Assembly: GCA_009845425.1 (NCBI GenBank)
Contig: VXZQ01000012.1
Span: 186,001 to 250,000 of the forward strand
Reading direction: 5' to 3'
From: Holophagales bacterium
GTDB taxonomy: Bacteria > Acidobacteriota > Thermoanaerobaculia > Multivoradales > Multivoraceae
Length of the DNA stretch: 64,000 bases
Part shown: positions 8,399 through 20,641 of the stretch, in pieces
Layout: each line of letters begins with the position of its first letter
How positions within the stretch are numbered: position 1 is the first letter of the stretch
The notes under the pieces: model-generated
The model's input: only the letters and a program-made list of their open reading frames with translations
Told to the model about the DNA's origin: nothing
Database searches by the model: none
Translations under genes and position numbers: made by a program

Positions 8399-9529
8399 TC
8401 ACGAGGAGAGGGGGCCGATGACCCCCTCCGCGAACTCGTGGAGCATCGCCATCTCCTCGTCCTGCTCGAACCAGCCGACGTGGTGCCACAGGAAGAACTC
8501 GTCGATGCCGAAGGTCTCGTTGAGCCGCCCCACGTGGTCGAGCACCTGCTGGCGCGACCCCATCCACAGCCGGCCCATCGGTACTTCGTAGGGAGGGGCG
8601 TTGTAGGCGAAGTTGAAGAGCCACTCGAAGCCTTCGTAGAGCTTCTTCGTCTCGGCCGGGTTTCGTCCCATGATCAGGTGTCCGCCCAGCGCGAGCATGT
8701 CGTTGGGGCCGATGATCCGGCCGTGTTGCAGCGCTTCCTCCAGGCAGATGTCCAGGGTCAGGGGGATGAACTCCTCCTTCGACTCGTTGAACATGCCCAT
8801 CATCTTGCCGCCCTCGCGGGCCCAGAACTTCGCGGTGCCCATGCTGTAGCTGAACGGTGCGTAGACCGGCGGATGCGGGTCGTTCTGCAGCGGGCGGGGA
8901 ACGATCCCGATCTCCTTCAGCGTGCCTTCACTGGTGACCGAGCCGGGCGACCATTCGCTTGTGGGCGCGAAGGTCCAGTCCATCGCCGGAGGCGCCTGCC
9001 AGAACTCGCCCGAGATGCTCACCACCTCCTGCGTCCAGAGCGCTTTCACGAGTCGCCAGTTCTCCTCGAACGCGCGGCGGTTGCGTCTGTCGACCTCCGA
9101 CTTGTCGGAGTGCGTCGCCGTGATCCCGATGTGCTGGCCGAAGGTGCCGGTCCACCGGGGCGTGTTGCCCCTGGTGAAGCCGGCGAACATGCGGCCGCCG
9201 GTGAAGTGGTCGAGCATCGCCAGGTTCTCGGCCAGTTGAATCGGGTTGACGGCGGTCAGGTTCATGCCGAGCTGGCCGACGCGCATCCGCTCCGTGTGCT
9301 GGGCGACGAAGTAGTCCCAGAACAGCGGATTCGTCGTCGTCTCGATCCCCTCCACCTGCAGATGCTGCTCGGTCATGCAGAAGCCGGTGTAGCCGACCGA
9401 CTCGGCGAACGTCATCTGCGTCTGGAGATTCGCCATCAGCGCCTGGAACCGGTTCGGGTCCGATCCCGCGCGGCCGACCTGTTCGCCCAGGCGCCGCATG
9501 TATGGGATGGCGAGGATGACGAACTCCAT
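8399..9529 (-). CDS. Luciferase-like flavin-dependent monooxygenase (LLM class)
   Basis: 376 residues from the ATG at 9529. This start overlaps the upstream Rieske gene stop by one base (TGATG) and begins with MEFVILAIPYMR, the usual first strand of the luciferase-like TIM barrel; the open frame upstream of it is low-complexity arginine-rich shadow. Family features include VGYTGFCMTEQHLQVEG (the EHH-like active-site turn, here EQH), LGMNLTAVNPIQLAENLAMLDHFTGGRMFAGFTRGN, and a C-terminal helical region. Enzymes of this class use reduced FMN or F420 supplied by a partner reductase; no such reductase is next to it. Coupling to a Rieske oxygenase suggests both act on the same organic substrate. 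Confidence 0.88.
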   Translation of the reverse strand: MEFVILAIPYMRRLGEQVGRAGSDPNRFQALMANLQTQMTFAESVGYTGFCMTEQHLQVEGIETTTNPLFWDYFVAQHTERMRVGQLGMNLTAVNPIQLAENLAMLDHFTGGRMFAGFTRGNTPRWTGTFGQHIGITATHSDKSEVDRRNRRAFEENWRLVKALWTQEVVSISGEFWQAPPAMDWTFAPTSEWSPGSVTSEGTLKEIGIVPRPLQNDPHPPVYAPFSYSMGTAKFWAREGGKMMGMFNESKEEFIPLTLDICLEEALQHGRIIGPNDMLALGGHLIMGRNPAETKKLYEGFEWLFNFAYNAPPYEVPMGRLWMGSRQQVLDHVGRLNETFGIDEFFLWHHVGWFEQDEEMAMLHEFAEGVIGPLSS

Positions 9530-10707
9530 CAGGCGCCGCTCCCGCCGGCGTCGCCGTTCAGGTAGTCGAGCACGCTCTGCTGGAAGTGCATGATGGGCGA
9601 TTCGGCGCCGAAGCCGGCGGCCAGCCGCCCGACCTCGAACTTCGGGGAGCGCAGGTTGCGCTGGATCATCTCGCAGATCCACATGTCCTCGAGCTGGAAG
9701 TTGCCGGACTCCATCGGGTGTTCATCCTGGTTGGCCAGGCTGATCAGCGTGGGCGCCTTGCCTGCTTCGTCGCGTGAGGCGGATCCGTAGGTCGTCCAGC
9801 TCTGCGTCCACATGGTCGTGAGGTCCGGGGTCTTCGGTTCCAGCAACGAGACATGGAAGCCCCAGGGGCTCGGCGACAGGATGGTCAGCGGGAAGAGCAT
9901 GACCACGCCCGGATAGAAGCTCTCCTCGTGACCCGGCAGGCGGGTGGCGCCGGCGGCGTCCGCCATTTTCGCCGACAGCACGGTGGTCGACTGCGGATCG
10001 CCTTCCCGTTCGGTCGAGTACCAGACCGTGTGGCGGCCGACCGGATGCCAGATGTTCCGGTCCGGGAAGGCGGCGCCCAGGGTCTTGTTGTGGAGATAGC
10101 CGAGGTGGTAACCGTCGATCGCGTTCTCGTAGAAGACCTTCCAGTTGCAGTGCATCTCGTAGCGCACGTCGCCGGCGTAGCTCAACGTGCCGTCACCCAG
10201 GTCATGCGGCCAGGCGTGCTCGTCGATCCCCGCGATCCACTGGTCGAACGGCTCGGGCGGATCCGGATCCGGATTGATGTAGACCATGCCGCGGTGGGCG
10301 CCGACCGCGGCTCGATGGAGCGAGAAGCTCTCGCGGGGCACGGCGCCGAAACACTCCGCTTCGTTGGGCACGCCGTGCAGCGCGCCGTTCGTCTCGTAGG
10401 TCCAGCGGTGGTACGGGCAGCGGATCGTGCTGCCCAGGTTGCCGCTGCCTTCGACGATCTCGCAGCCGCGGTGGCGGCATACGTTGTGGAAGGCCTGCAG
10501 CTCCCCGGCCCCGTCCCGGAGCACGAACAGGGAGTGGTTCATCACGCGGCAGGTACGGAAGTCCCCGGGTTGCTTCAGGTCCTGCTCGGTGGCGGCCCAG
10601 ACCCAGGAGCGGTCGAACAGATGGTCGACTTCGCGGTCGAGCCATGACGCCTCGAAGTAGGCCTCCGGCGGCAGGATCTGGCGGGGTTGGTCGAAGGGTG
10701 TACTCAC
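9529..10707 (-). CDS. Rieske non-haem iron oxygenase, alpha subunit
   Basis: 392 residues. The N-terminal Rieske [2Fe-2S] motif is clear: CRHRGCEIVE with CxH, and after a short gap CPYHRWTY with CxxH. The C-terminal catalytic domain carries the mononuclear iron motif in ENAIDGYHLGYLH (D-x2-H-x4-H). This is the plan of aromatic ring-hydroxylating and demethylating oxygenases such as those of the phthalate/choline-monooxygenase branches. No beta subunit, ferredoxin or reductase gene is adjacent, so electrons must come from elsewhere. Its start overlaps the TetR gene stop by 4 bases and its stop overlaps the LLM gene start. The substrate cannot be read from sequence. Confidence 0.92.
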   Translation of the reverse strand: MSTPFDQPRQILPPEAYFEASWLDREVDHLFDRSWVWAATEQDLKQPGDFRTCRVMNHSLFVLRDGAGELQAFHNVCRHRGCEIVEGSGNLGSTIRCPYHRWTYETNGALHGVPNEAECFGAVPRESFSLHRAAVGAHRGMVYINPDPDPPEPFDQWIAGIDEHAWPHDLGDGTLSYAGDVRYEMHCNWKVFYENAIDGYHLGYLHNKTLGAAFPDRNIWHPVGRHTVWYSTEREGDPQSTTVLSAKMADAAGATRLPGHEESFYPGVVMLFPLTILSPSPWGFHVSLLEPKTPDLTTMWTQSWTTYGSASRDEAGKAPTLISLANQDEHPMESGNFQLEDMWICEMIQRNLRSPKFEVGRLAAGFGAESPIMHFQQSVLDYLNGDAGGSGA

Positions 10708-11276
10708 GGCTGCTCCTCCTTTCCGAGTCCCTGCAGCAGGGTTCTGGCGGCCAGGTTCGCCGCGTCCGCCGCGGCAATGCGGCCCGAGGCGACTTCGTTC
10801 CAGGCGGTCCAGATGAGCTGGTCGATCTGCGCCACCACCCAGGCGGTCGGCACGTCGGCCGCGACGGCGCCCTCGGCCTTGAGTTCGCCGACCAGTGTTC
10901 CGACCCGGTCGAGTTGCCGCCGGTACTCGTCGGTTGTGTGTTCGTCACCGATCTCCGCGCGATAGAGAAAGCTGTAGCGGTCCCCCAGAGGGATGACCGC
11001 CTCGAACATGCGTTGCAGTTGCCGGGTGGCGCTCGCGCTCCGGTCGATGGCCGCGGCCACTGCTTCGTTCGTCTCCTCGATACAGATCTCGGCCAGCACC
11101 GTGAGCAGGTCGTCGCGGTTCCTGAAGTGCCGGTGGAGCGTTGCGCGCCCGACCCCGGCGTGGAGGGCGACCTCGCTGAAGGTTGCTCCCGGGTTGCGCG
11201 ACCAGAGGCGGATTGCGGCGTCGATGATCGCGTCGCGGGCGGTTGGACGTGGGCTGGGATTCAGGGCTGATCTCAT
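10704..11276 (-). CDS. TetR-family transcriptional regulator
   Basis: 190 residues from ATG 11276. The helix-turn-helix is TFSEVALHAGVGRATLHRHF, immediately followed by RNRDDLL, the standard TetR N-terminal pattern; the remaining 130 residues are helical ligand-binding/dimer sequence. An in-frame ATG at 11303 was not used because it would fall at the predicted transcription start of the promoter at 11308-11336. As the first gene of the TetR-Rieske-LLM operon, with a palindrome over its own promoter, it probably represses the operon and is relieved by a substrate or product of the oxygenases (inference from position). Confidence 0.88.
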   Translation of the reverse strand: MRSALNPSPRPTARDAIIDAAIRLWSRNPGATFSEVALHAGVGRATLHRHFRNRDDLLTVLAEICIEETNEAVAAAIDRSASATRQLQRMFEAVIPLGDRYSFLYRAEIGDEHTTDEYRRQLDRVGTLVGELKAEGAVAADVPTAWVVAQIDQLIWTAWNEVASGRIAAADAANLAARTLLQGLGKEEQP

Positions 11277-11307
11277 GCGTTTACCTCGACGAGCGTTTCG
11301 CATTCAG

Positions 11308-11336
11308 ATGGTACAAAGGTGCCTCATACGATGCAA
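11308..11336 (-). promoter_or_regulatory. Promoter of the TetR/Rieske/LLM operon
   Basis: Read on the minus strand: TTGCAT (11336-11331), a 17-base spacer, and TACCAT (11313-11308). The transcription start would fall near 11301, giving a leader of about 25 bases before ATG 11276. The -35 is a weak match to consensus, the -10 a fair one. It lies in the 92-base gap after the MFS gene, so the operon can be expressed separately from the transporter. Confidence 0.5.
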
Positions 11337-11338
11337 CT
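11317..11338. promoter_or_regulatory. Operator-like imperfect palindrome (candidate TetR site)
   Basis: The two 11-base half-sites, read outward to centre, are AGTTGCATCGT and AGGTGCCTCAT; they agree at 8 of 11 positions. The site covers the -35 and most of the spacer of the promoter at 11308-11336, where binding would block RNA polymerase. The length suits a TetR dimer. Assignment to the adjacent regulator is inference. Confidence 0.5.
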
Positions 11339-11368
11339 AGAGTTTCACATGATCCCGATCTCACTCAG

Positions 11369-12772
11369 TCAGCTCTGATCCTCTGCGCCAGCGAGCATGG
11401 CGAGGTTCTCCTGGTGCCGGTGGCGACTCAGCCGGTAGTAGCGGAGGGCGTAGATGGCGGCGACGTAGAGGAAGGCGAGCACCGGGCCGTAGAGCCAACC
11501 CAGGCGGTCGACCATCTCCTGGTCGATCGCGGAGACGTCCGCGTCGGTCGGGAAGTCGATCGCGGTCAGCAGGAGGCCCCCGATCCAGATTCCCAGGCCA
11601 GTTGCCACCTTGCCCGTGAAGGAGAGAACGGAGGACACGAGTCCCTCTTCCCGCCGGCCGGTGGCCACTGCGCGGGCGTCGACGATGTCTGCCACCATGG
11701 AGGCGCCTACCGTGCTCGTCATGACGATCAGGGCCACCTGGACGACGCCGATCGCGACCATCAGCGGAAAGAGCGTCGAGTGGTCGACCGGAGGGAAGGC
11801 GCCGAGCAGGGCGAGAATGACCGGGCCGCTGCCGACCAGGAGCGACAGGATCGATAGCCGGATCAGCACCGCCTTCTTGTCGCGCCCGCGACTGGCGGCC
11901 GGCAGGAGCAGAACGGCCAAAACCGGCGACGCCAGTTGAGCCGCCAGGATGGTACTTGTCTGTGCGCTGTCGAAGCCCCAGAACCAGGGTTGCATGTAGG
12001 CCCACATCGCGGTCGCCGTGCCGCTGGCTGCGGCGGTCAGCGCGGTCGAGGCGACAATCGCGGCCAGACTGCCGTCTCGCAGGGTCGCCAGGCTTTCACC
12101 GAGGACCCGCCGGGCCGACGCTGCTCCGGGCGGTGGTGCAGCGAGGGTGGGAATGTGCCGGTGGGTGGCGGCCGCGGCCAGCGCGAGGCAGAGGCAGAGC
12201 GCGCAGGCGGTGACGAGGCCGGCCTGCTCGTAGCCGGCGCGTCGCAGGATGCCCGCACCGTCGGGATAGTCCGGCGTGTCGGCCAGCCACCAGACATACA
12301 TCGAAACCGCCATCAGGGTGCCGAAGAACCAGCCGCCGGCGTAGGAGTAGTTCATCAGGCGCGTACGATCCTCGTAGCCCGGTGCGAGCTCCGGCAGCAG
12401 CGCGTTGAAGGGGACGGTGTGCATCGTCAGCGCCAGCCGCAGCGCGACGGTGAAGCCGGCGAGCCACAGGAACATGGCCGTTTGAGCCAAGTCGGGAGGC
12501 GCCCAGAGCAGGTAATAGCAGACCGGGATCGGGAGCACCGCGCCGTAGAGAAAGGGGTGGCGCCGTCCCAGGCGGCTCCGCAGCCGGTCCGACCAGCGCC
12601 CCACCAGGGGATCGGACAGCGCATCGACGACCAACGCGAGCAGAAGGGCGGAACCCGCCAGCGCCGGGTCCAGGCCGATCACCTGGCTGTAGTAGATGAG
12701 GAGAAAGAAGGAGATGCCGTTGCTGACCAGACCGCCAGCCGTTCCCGAGGCAGTGAAGGCGGCGCGGTCCAA
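11369..12772 (-). CDS. MFS transporter of the GPH (MelB-like) cation-symporter family
   Basis: 467 residues with about 12 hydrophobic helices. The loop between helices 2 and 3 reads DPLVGRWSDRLRSRLGRRHPF, the diagnostic motif of glycoside-pentoside-hexuronide:cation symporters related to MelB; the first helix region (GGLVSNGISFFLLIYYSQVIGL) also fits. Bacterial GPH members often sit beside catabolic genes and carry sugars, glycosides or other small organic molecules. The start is TTG 12772, the only start-like codon ahead of the first helix, and remains uncertain by a few residues. It is co-oriented with and 92 bases upstream of the TetR/Rieske/LLM operon, so it may import their substrate. 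Confidence 0.82.
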   Translation of the reverse strand: MDRAAFTASGTAGGLVSNGISFFLLIYYSQVIGLDPALAGSALLLALVVDALSDPLVGRWSDRLRSRLGRRHPFLYGAVLPIPVCYYLLWAPPDLAQTAMFLWLAGFTVALRLALTMHTVPFNALLPELAPGYEDRTRLMNYSYAGGWFFGTLMAVSMYVWWLADTPDYPDGAGILRRAGYEQAGLVTACALCLCLALAAAATHRHIPTLAAPPPGAASARRVLGESLATLRDGSLAAIVASTALTAAASGTATAMWAYMQPWFWGFDSAQTSTILAAQLASPVLAVLLLPAASRGRDKKAVLIRLSILSLLVGSGPVILALLGAFPPVDHSTLFPLMVAIGVVQVALIVMTSTVGASMVADIVDARAVATGRREEGLVSSVLSFTGKVATGLGIWIGGLLLTAIDFPTDADVSAIDQEMVDRLGWLYGPVLAFLYVAAIYALRYYRLSRHRHQENLAMLAGAEDQS

Positions 12773-13886: not shown

Positions 13887-15083
13887 TCAGAAGTAGTCGG
13901 GCATGGACGGCGGTTCGGCCGCGAAGACCCGGTCCGCCTGTTCCAGTGCGGCAGCCGATCCATGGACGGCCTCCATCGCCGCCAGGCGGCGGACACTCAG
14001 GTGGCCGGTGTAGAGGGAACCGAGCGCGCGGATGTCCATCCTCAGCGTGTCGGGCCCCGCATCCTGATGGACCCGGTTCGCCCTGGCCTCGCCGCCGTCG
14101 ATCTCGATCAGCCAGCGTCCCGCGTTTTCGGGCAGGACGTCGTCCGTCAGTTCCAGGTCGAGCCTCGCGCTCGCGGCTGCCGGATAACCCCGTTCGGCGA
14201 AAGCCGCCCGGACGTCGACGATGCGGATCATCCAGGTTTCGGCGATGGAGATCTCGGTCCCGACTTCCGGCACGGCGAGGAGCAGTGGGTCGTCGAGCGG
14301 GCCGTACCATGTTGCGTGGCGAGCCAGGGTGCGGCAATCCGAGAACAGGGCAAGGATGCGCCGCGCCGCGCCGGGATTCGCCACCTGAACGTCGCGGATG
14401 TTGAGGTCATACGGATAGCGACCCACCGCGCCCAGGGTGTAGACCACGTAACCGTCGATGGCTCCGTCATCTGCCGGCAGCACGTAGCCATGCACGTCGC
14501 GGCCGGCCGGGTGGTTGTGGACCCGCTGCCAGATGTGTTCGTTGCGGTCGAGCCAGCCGGGACGGTCCGCGGCCAATCGCCGGTAGAGCCGCGCAAGCCC
14601 GTCGGCGTCGGTTTCCGGATCGAGCCGGCGGAGTTCCCCGCTCGCCTGAAGGCGCCCCAATCCTGCGAGCGGCAGCCGGTACTGGTAACGGTGGCCGGCA
14701 ACCGCGTAGCCGGCGCGGCCGTACAGCGTGAAGGTCGTGGGGTAGAGAGTCGACACCGCCACACCGGCGTCGTGCAGGTCATTCAGGGTGGACGCCATCA
14801 GGGACTTGGCGGCGCCGCGGCCGCGGGCCGTGGGACTGATGGCGACTCCGGCGATGCCAATGTTGCGGACCGACCTGCCCCCCAGGAACAGCCCCATGTC
14901 GTACTGGACCAGGCCCCCGACGACATCACGCCCGGCTCGCACGACGCGCACGTGGTCCCGTGTCGCTTGCAGCCAGGCGACGCAGGAGTCGTAAGGAGTG
15001 TTGAAGGCGAGGGACTCCTGGCGGGCCAGGGCCTCCAGGTCGGCGGAGGTCTGGATCGGGCCGAAGCTGAGGCGCTGCGTCAC
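13887..15083 (-). CDS. Eis-type GNAT N-acetyltransferase
   Basis: 398 residues starting at GTG 15083. The three-part architecture of the Eis family is evident: an N-terminal GNAT domain with the acetyl-CoA loop GVAISPTARGRGAAKSLM (V/I-x-x-x-R-G-x-G-x-A), a second degenerate GNAT fold following HRYQYRLPL, and a C-terminal SCP2-like region ending near the C-terminus, whose carboxylate is catalytic in Eis. The last residues are PSMPDYF, matching the usual Phe-ending tail. Eis enzymes acetylate amines on aminoglycosides, lysines or polyamines with broad specificity. The gene faces away from the Gld-like ABC operon; the 144-base gap between them shows no clear promoter to me. Confidence 0.85.
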   Translation of the reverse strand: MTQRLSFGPIQTSADLEALARQESLAFNTPYDSCVAWLQATRDHVRVVRAGRDVVGGLVQYDMGLFLGGRSVRNIGIAGVAISPTARGRGAAKSLMASTLNDLHDAGVAVSTLYPTTFTLYGRAGYAVAGHRYQYRLPLAGLGRLQASGELRRLDPETDADGLARLYRRLAADRPGWLDRNEHIWQRVHNHPAGRDVHGYVLPADDGAIDGYVVYTLGAVGRYPYDLNIRDVQVANPGAARRILALFSDCRTLARHATWYGPLDDPLLLAVPEVGTEISIAETWMIRIVDVRAAFAERGYPAAASARLDLELTDDVLPENAGRWLIEIDGGEARANRVHQDAGPDTLRMDIRALGSLYTGHLSVRRLAAMEAVHGSAAALEQADRVFAAEPPSMPDYF

Positions 15084-19804: not shown

Positions 19805-20641
19805 ATGGACATCGGCATCTTCATGTTTCCCACCGGCGACTCGATGCGGCCCGACGATCTCGGCGCCGAGGTCGAGGCGCGCGGCTTCGAGTCCCTCTGG
19901 TTCCCGGAGCACACCCACATACCGACCTCCCGGCGAACGCCTTTCCCCGGGGGTGGCGAGTTGCCGCCAGAGTACTCCCGTTCCCACGACCCGTTCGTCG
20001 CGCTGACCGCGGCCGCGATGACAACGAAGAGGATCAAGCTCGGCACCGGCATCTGCCTGATCATCGAGCGCGACACGATCACCACGGCCAAGACGGTGGC
20101 GAGTCTCGACGTGCTCTCCGGCGGCCGCTTCGTGTTCGGGATCGGCGGCGGCTGGAACCGGGAAGAGATGGAGCACCACGGCACGGACTACCCGACCCGC
20201 TTCGCGAAGCTGGAAGAGCAGGTGGCGGCGTTCAGGACGATCTGGACCGAGGACGAGGCGGAGTTCCACGGCCGCCACGTCGACTTCGAGCCGATCTGGT
20301 CCTGGCCGAAGCCCGAGCAGAAGCCCCACCCGCCGATCCTGCTCGGCGGCGGCACCGGCTACACCCGCCAGCGCGTCGTCGATCGCTGCGACGGCTGGCT
20401 GCCCATCGGTCGGTCGACCGAGGCGGTGCTCGACGGCATCGGGGATCTGAAGCAGCGCGCGGAGAAGGCCGGACGCGCCATGGAGACGATCTCCATCAGC
20501 GTCTTCGGCGCGCCGCCGCAGCAGGAGGTGCTCGATGGCTACGCCGAGGCCGGCGTGGACCGCGTCATCCTGCCGCTGCCGCCACAGGGCCGGGACAGGA
20601 ACCTGCCGCGCCTCGACCGCTACGCCACGTTGCGGGCCTAG
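19805..20641 (+). CDS. F420-dependent LLM-class oxidoreductase
   Basis: 278 residues, a compact luciferase-like TIM barrel. Family landmarks are MDIGIFMFPTGDSM, FESLWFPEHTHIP, LGTGICLIIERDTITTAKTVASLDVLSGGRFVFGIGGGWNREEMEHHG and LLGGGTGYTRQRVVDRCDGWLPIG. The GGGWNxEE segment and length match the Rv2161c-like group predicted to use coenzyme F420. F420 use is inference from family; no F420 biosynthesis gene is in the window. It begins 32 bases after the DUF4340 gene and may be read from the same transcript, and it ends in a 4-base convergent overlap with the YbdK-like gene. Confidence 0.87.
   Translation: MDIGIFMFPTGDSMRPDDLGAEVEARGFESLWFPEHTHIPTSRRTPFPGGGELPPEYSRSHDPFVALTAAAMTTKRIKLGTGICLIIERDTITTAKTVASLDVLSGGRFVFGIGGGWNREEMEHHGTDYPTRFAKLEEQVAAFRTIWTEDEAEFHGRHVDFEPIWSWPKPEQKPHPPILLGGGTGYTRQRVVDRCDGWLPIGRSTEAVLDGIGDLKQRAEKAGRAMETISISVFGAPPQQEVLDGYAEAGVDRVILPLPPQGRDRNLPRLDRYATLRA

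Follow-up and report, generated by a model that had tools for sequence, protein, structure and literature searches.

A parallel for a tailoring pair that unites a Rieske-type oxygenase with a luciferase-like monooxygenase (LLM) is provided by MupW and MupA in mupirocin, and among Rieske systems generally the alpha subunits of the benzoate/anthranilate/glycine-betaine group offer a point of comparison. In the 64,000-nucleotide stretch of Holophagales bacterium contig VXZQ01000012.1 analysed here (the window), genes for a Rieske oxygenase and an LLM lie next to one another on the minus strand, in an order read directly from the sequence as transporter, TetR-family regulator, Rieske oxygenase, LLM. 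The Rieske protein resembles the alpha subunits of that group in its Rieske 2Fe-2S motif, mononuclear iron ligands and bridging aspartate, and differs from them in having no adjacent partner reductase or beta subunit. We consider it likely that the four genes, carried by bacteria akin to known sponge symbionts, constitute a horizontally mobile, TetR-repressed catabolic cassette that takes up a compound and then oxidizes this same compound with both the Rieske enzyme and the LLM, and the genes are probably switched on together. The genome to which the window belongs (G000) comprises 4.3 Mb and is 98% complete, and the features of the locus are as follows:

11369..12772, minus strand: GPH/MFS_2-type transporter, 467 amino acids, TTG start (Pfam MFS_2, 3.3e-65)
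11308..11336, minus strand: promoter-like element TTGCAT-17-TACCAT overlapping the candidate operator (comparison with cassette relatives)
11310..11325, minus strand: candidate TetR operator GAGGCACCTTTGTACC, two mismatches to GAGACA-N4-TGTMTC (motif comparison)
10704..11276, minus strand: TetR-family regulator, likely start 11276, longest frame to 11303 (Pfam TetR_N, 6.7e-10; start from relatives)
9529..10707, minus strand: Rieske non-haem-iron oxygenase alpha subunit, 392 amino acids, GTG start (Pfam, overlaps, invariant residues)
8399..9529, minus strand: LLM flavin monooxygenase, 376 amino acids, ATG start (Pfam Bac_luciferase, 1.2e-21; its predicted model matches FMNH2-type LLMs first)

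The overlaps described in the original prediction, made from the DNA letters, are present as stated. The TetR stop and the Rieske GTG start share the four bases GTGA at 10704-10707, and the Rieske stop and the LLM ATG share a single base (9529) within TGATG. Because of this latter overlap the LLM start was set at 9529; the upstream start that would lengthen the open reading frame to 9682 is spurious. Relatives suggest that the TetR start is the ATG at 11276 and not 11303, and the TTG start of the transporter is kept in acidobacterial relatives. Strict translational coupling fails as a general rule, since the gammaproteobacterial versions have gaps of 21 and 3 bases. The upstream gene had been called a GPH symporter, an assignment that holds at the Pfam family level (MFS_2) but not for the TIGR00792 model, where a score of 133.9 falls short of the 231.35 cut-off.

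Conservation of the Rieske-LLM pair was followed through a phylum sample of 297 genomes, 11 of them in the window's genus (compared genomes are designated by G-numbers and compared loci by L-numbers). Gene calls in relatives came from a crude caller that produced some shadow frames; the claims made here rest on tblastn positions and Pfam matches. An LLM of at least 93% identity occurs in nine of the 297 genomes, all within the 11 congeners, and the same nine encode a Rieske protein of at least 87% identity that adjoins the LLM in every case; close LLM and Rieske homologs were found in none of the 286 other genomes of the sample. Since adjacency is kept in 9/9 sampled genomes with a close LLM, it is not a matter of chance. 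At an E value of 1e-40 or better the LLM matches in 11/297 genomes, and the extra matches (G108 and G176), together with second matches elsewhere, represent a paralog of 40-41% identity. In G108 and G176 the genes for HlyD and DUF2911 are directly consecutive and the transporter, TetR, Rieske and LLM genes are all missing; the flanking FtsX of G108 is 99% identical. This empty site indicates that the four-gene interval is gained or lost as one unit. An Eis-like GNAT gene with an SCP2 domain (window positions 13887-15083) adjoins the cassette site and is conserved with or without the cassette.

The pair is also found beyond the phylum. One gammaproteobacterial locus (L034) has the full order GPH (64% identity), TetR (63%), Rieske (62%) and LLM (86%), and other gammaproteobacterial versions retain TetR-Rieske-LLM (L036), Rieske-LLM (L032), or GPH-TetR-Rieske cut by the contig end (L092). 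The last of these and L036 are two contigs of G299 whose TetR-Rieske copies share 90% identity over 1.5 kb; the G299 cassette is either duplicated or strain-mixed. In the LLM tree, which comprises 30 of the 32 LLM loci in the genome collection plus the window and two plasmid rows (L054 and L055 were too short and were left out), the acidobacterial rows form a cluster with L032 and L034 (support 98/98); the placement of L036 is uncertain. Within the Acidobacteriota some loci have no TetR gene, and in two of these (L025, L033) four bases are shared by the transporter stop and the Rieske start; in a third (L029) about 40 bases separate the two genes. Because the transporter gene runs into the Rieske gene or lies immediately before it in these TetR-less relatives, we assign it to the cassette pathway. 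An internally deleted cassette is present at L055 8928-10474, where the transporter, Rieske and LLM matches extend over 165, 186 and 140 residues.

Sequence comparison of the candidate operator across loci provides the strongest evidence for a single cassette regulon. A promoter-like element, matched in 8/9 cassette sequences compared, lies between the transporter and TetR (or c24, a gene described below) and carries an imperfect palindrome in its spacer, an arrangement common to relatives; a sigma-70 consensus scan of the window promoter found 0, the element being under the scanner threshold. The operator motif GAGACA-N4-TGTMTC, with at most one mismatch allowed (the window copy has two), occurs at the TetR/cassette promoter in all 13 TetR-bearing loci with upstream DNA (the window, L024, L026, L027, L028, L030, L031, L035, L073, L034, L091, L092 and L115); L036, truncated at TetR, is outside this count. 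It was found in 0/4 TetR-less acidobacterial pair loci (L025, L029, L033, L055), 0/2 empty-site loci, 0/17 LLM-only loci (L038-L054) and 0/3 plasmid loci, and is unmatched in L032 and L036, both of which start inside the cassette. The motif thus behaves as a palindromic promoter operator that is lost with its regulator (13/13 versus 0/4), by which the protein would be classed as a TetR repressor of its own operon. Its absence from TetR-less loci indicates that regulator and operator were lost or gained together, with the transporter then joined to the oxygenases. The helix-turn-helix segment AGVGRATLHR is identical in the cassette TetRs apart from a single Ser in place of Thr at L027, and it differs in the TetR of a Ruegeria relative whose locus is without the motif.

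Further evidence comes from gammaproteobacteria in which the genes are not linked. In G300 (Pseudomonadales) the LLM (79% identity) is on one contig and TetR (52%) and Rieske (57%) are on another, and GAGRCANNNNTGTAYC has exactly two matches in the 6 Mb of this genome: one lies roughly 50 bases ahead of the unlinked LLM, the other in front of TetR-Rieske, between these genes and a divergent second Rieske gene. The presence of the same operator on both loci argues for one regulon. In G298 one operator separates a TonB receptor gene from a Rieske gene, and another, a perfect palindrome, separates TetR (54%) from a c24 homolog (72-76%) that is split over two frames. Taking G298, G299 and G300 together, 4/7 operator matches fall within 150 bases of a cassette homolog, a placement with a probability of about 2e-11 when 25 such genes per genome are allowed (a rough value, the genes having been chosen by the analyst). 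The c24 gene, of 1090 residues, lies inside the cassette of several acidobacterial relatives between the transporter and TetR (L027 819-4091; L030 2438-5677; L115 10403-13554). Its product combines YVTN-propeller repeats with a pair of CxxCH haem motifs and a TSP3 tail, and from a reading of the N-terminus it appears to have a signal peptide and hence to be secreted. The gene is present in 4/20 genomes searched (3/11 congeners and G298), G000 not being one of them. A broader, tentative reading is a hitherto undescribed mobile regulon of sponge-associated Acidobacteriota and Gammaproteobacteria in which one TetR/operator would control TonB uptake, a secreted beta-propeller/two-haem-motif protein, inner-membrane import, one or two Rieske enzymes, and the LLM, which may together form an outside-to-inside route for oxidizing a single abundant metabolite of the host or the microbiome.

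The Rieske protein matches Pfam Rieske (4.2e-21) and Ring_hydroxyl_A (1e-23), both above cut-off, and retains all catalytic positions in the alignment. Residues C77/H79, C97/H100, Asp198, His201, His206 and Asp341, which we take from the family to be the 2Fe-2S ligands, iron ligands and bridging aspartate, are invariant in 10/10 aligned homologs. With the CxH...CxxH motif, 2-His-1-Asp site and bridging acid, its sequence would place it among the Rieske oxygenase alpha subunits. Among proteins of known structure, phmmer places biphenyl dioxygenase, phthalate 3,4-dioxygenase and carnitine monooxygenase CntA closest to it, with matches that span just the first ~210-230 residues. The LLM belongs to the luciferase-like superfamily by its Bac_luciferase score (77.9 bits, cut-off 27.9) and by fold matches of its predicted model, of which RslO1, 2i7g and LuxA, all FMNH2-type, come first; the model has a mean pLDDT of 68.8, adequate for fold class only. 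The predicted Rieske structure (mean pLDDT 41.3) was not used further. Alignments for structure comprised 14/32 LLM loci, or seven Rieske relatives, each with the window protein. A further luciferase-family gene (PF00296 match) is present at window positions 19805-20641.

No NCBIfam model reaches its cut-off for any cassette protein, and so neither oxygenase is given a known substrate by family. The best match of the Rieske protein, glycine betaine monooxygenase GbcA, scores 99.7 bits against a cut-off of 670, and the LLM is under all NCBIfam LLM cut-offs, the best being CE1758 at 52 against 479.1. In CntA and GbcA the acid preceding the first iron histidine is glutamate. Demethylation of glycine betaine or carnitine was rejected on scores far under cut-off and on the aspartate found at this position. 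Sulfonate or taurine chemistry was suggested by a Ruegeria relative near xsc and was likewise set aside: its Rieske protein is 32% identical, and no sulfonate gene was recognized beside the window cassette. The glycoside or terpenoid substrate proposed originally gains no support, there being no evidence either way.

As predicted, neither oxygenase has a recognizable electron-transfer partner close by: no reductase, ferredoxin or beta subunit was recognized among the immediate cassette neighbors scanned (Pfam, NCBIfam), and no flavin reductase was found among these by Pfam, no genome-wide search for one having been made. Across the G000 genome NqrF is the sole FAD_binding_6 protein, Reductase_C has no match, and the one stand-alone Fer2 ferredoxin candidate is ISC-like, yet under that model's cut-off. 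The window Rieske enzyme is accordingly not one of the multi-component systems with a dedicated FNR-type or GR-type reductase in G000, and because this genome is without a dedicated reductase of the two families searched, the electrons must come from a shared or other carrier. In G262 the cassette itself includes a second Rieske gene and a PaaE/GbcB-like FNR/Fer2 reductase (L030 6010-8198), with identities of 66% and 56% to a pair on a Ruegeria plasmid, and so the dedicated reductase varies between species. G000 has 27 luciferase-family and 9 Rieske matches and NqrF as its only FAD_binding_6 protein, which leaves several Rieske proteins without a recognized reductase.

The repression, import and reaction order that we infer would proceed as follows. 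TetR would sit on a GAGACA-N4-TGTMTC-type operator in the promoter that separates its own gene from that of the transporter, and the substrate or an early product would relieve repression. The MFS_2/GPH transporter would import a small organic compound, which the Rieske enzyme and the FMNH2-dependent LLM would then oxidize one after the other, with gene order as the only hint to the order of reactions; in acidobacterial versions the short gene overlaps may hold the two enzymes at a fixed ratio. Sequential attack on one substrate was the central claim of the original prediction, and a common pathway is likely given unit gain and loss, retention of the pair in two phyla and the operator shared by unlinked loci. 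The close relatives are metagenome-assembled Acidobacteriota, including Candidatus Multivorans thiocomprendens and bins named Holophagales and Thermoanaerobaculia, and several of these bins presumably derive from sponges, judging from names such as COS and RHO. Passages of one study (PMC8163846) describe sampling of the sponges Coscinoderma (C. matthewsi), Rhopaloeides (R. odorabile) and Ircinia (I. ramosa) and report Acidobacteriota as common to R. odorabile, C. matthewsi and I. ramosa. As a guess, the substrate could be a sponge- or microbiome-derived metabolite.

Several observations weigh against a TetR-controlled catabolic cassette of this kind. The operator pattern was derived from acidobacterial loci, so that only the gammaproteobacterial sites are independent; the window copy is the most degenerate of all, and one two-mismatch match in 64 kb is no more than expected by chance. 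Genome-wide the motif is not enriched, with 15 matches in 15 genomes versus 19 for a backwards control, and 6/15 matches are not at cassette genes, several being inside predicted genes; the evidence therefore rests on position. A Pfam scan recognized no genes for downstream degradation beside the cassette in the window. Finally, 18/32 LLM relatives (L037-L054, 62-80% identity) have no adjoining Rieske homolog, so that homologs do normally occur apart in the wider LLM family; this does not hold for the close relatives of the pair, and the 14 loci with an adjoining Rieske gene are 11 acidobacterial (L024-L031, L033, L035, L055) and three gammaproteobacterial (L032, L034, L036).

The alternative that best survives, though we regard it as unlikely, is that the cassette serves detoxification and not nutrition, disarming a toxic sponge or microbial secondary metabolite that is also the TetR inducer. 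TetR regulators often sense toxic ligands, and the cassette's patchy gain and loss in close relatives and the absence of recognized downstream catabolic genes beside it in the window would fit; yet the transporter family consists of importers, not exporters, and the TonB receptor on the same operator in G298 points to active uptake. That a single ancestral transfer placed two functionally unrelated enzymes in one operon by chance is improbable: the separate LLM relatives and the different contigs in G300 would be consistent with it, but both unlinked G300 loci bear the same operator, and among 16 genomes compared a Rieske ortholog (57-68% identity) occurs in exactly the four gammaproteobacteria, those with an LLM of at least 79%, and in none of the 12 others (best match 36%; one had no match). 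A biosynthetic tailoring pair decorating a natural product is just as implausible, for although Rieske and LLM enzymes both serve as tailoring enzymes, no synthase was found among the neighbors scanned in the window or in relatives, the regulon includes uptake proteins, and TIGR04020, the model of MupA/Atu3671-type LLMs of secondary metabolism, scores 24.9 against a cut-off of 244.45.

The catabolic cassette preferred here can be set against several known systems. A search of the literature at record level found no paper on a Rieske oxygenase and an LLM in one conserved unit. The best fold matches of the LLM model are RslO1, Atu2307/2i7g, LuxA, SfnG and diketocamphane monooxygenase, to which the predicted likeness is one of fold, at only 14-18% identity, and a Rieske gene is an unusual partner for such enzymes. 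On plasmids, the best Rieske identity over most of the length by tblastn is 32.2% (best 30 of 962 records). The Ruegeria sp. THAF33 locus, TetR-(hypothetical)-Rieske-reductase, resembles the cassette in placing TetR before a Rieske protein of the same broad type (32% identity), and differs in having no LLM, no operator match and a different TetR reading helix; its Rieske enzyme has its own reductase and is 66% identical to the second Rieske of G262. The Aminobacter aminovorans pAA04 cluster (RidA-LLM-AMP ligase-OB-fold-thiolase) encodes an LLM 64% identical over 98% to that of the window, and unlike the cassette has no adjacent Rieske gene, TetR operator or GPH transporter, its LLM partners being acyl-CoA enzymes and an ABC importer. 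An acyl-CoA ligase likewise follows the LLM in the alphaproteobacterial loci L049-L053 (5/5) as in the Aminobacter plasmid locus L066, and these neighborhoods suggest a different pathway for that LLM clade; a divergent AMP-binding gene is present at Actinomycetota loci, for example L039, L040, L042 and L047. In the alphaproteobacterial LLM family RidA or TauD accompanies the acyl-CoA ligase (L066 9565-14242, L049 9137-12681), with an OB-fold protein and thiolase in some loci. The unlinked but co-marked G300 copies offer an unusually clean test of whether two oxygenases of different chemistry act in one pathway, and identifying the inducer would reveal a compound over which symbionts of two phyla compete or which they disarm. 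All of the parts are of known kinds, and it is their pairing, mobility and operator that form a new combination.

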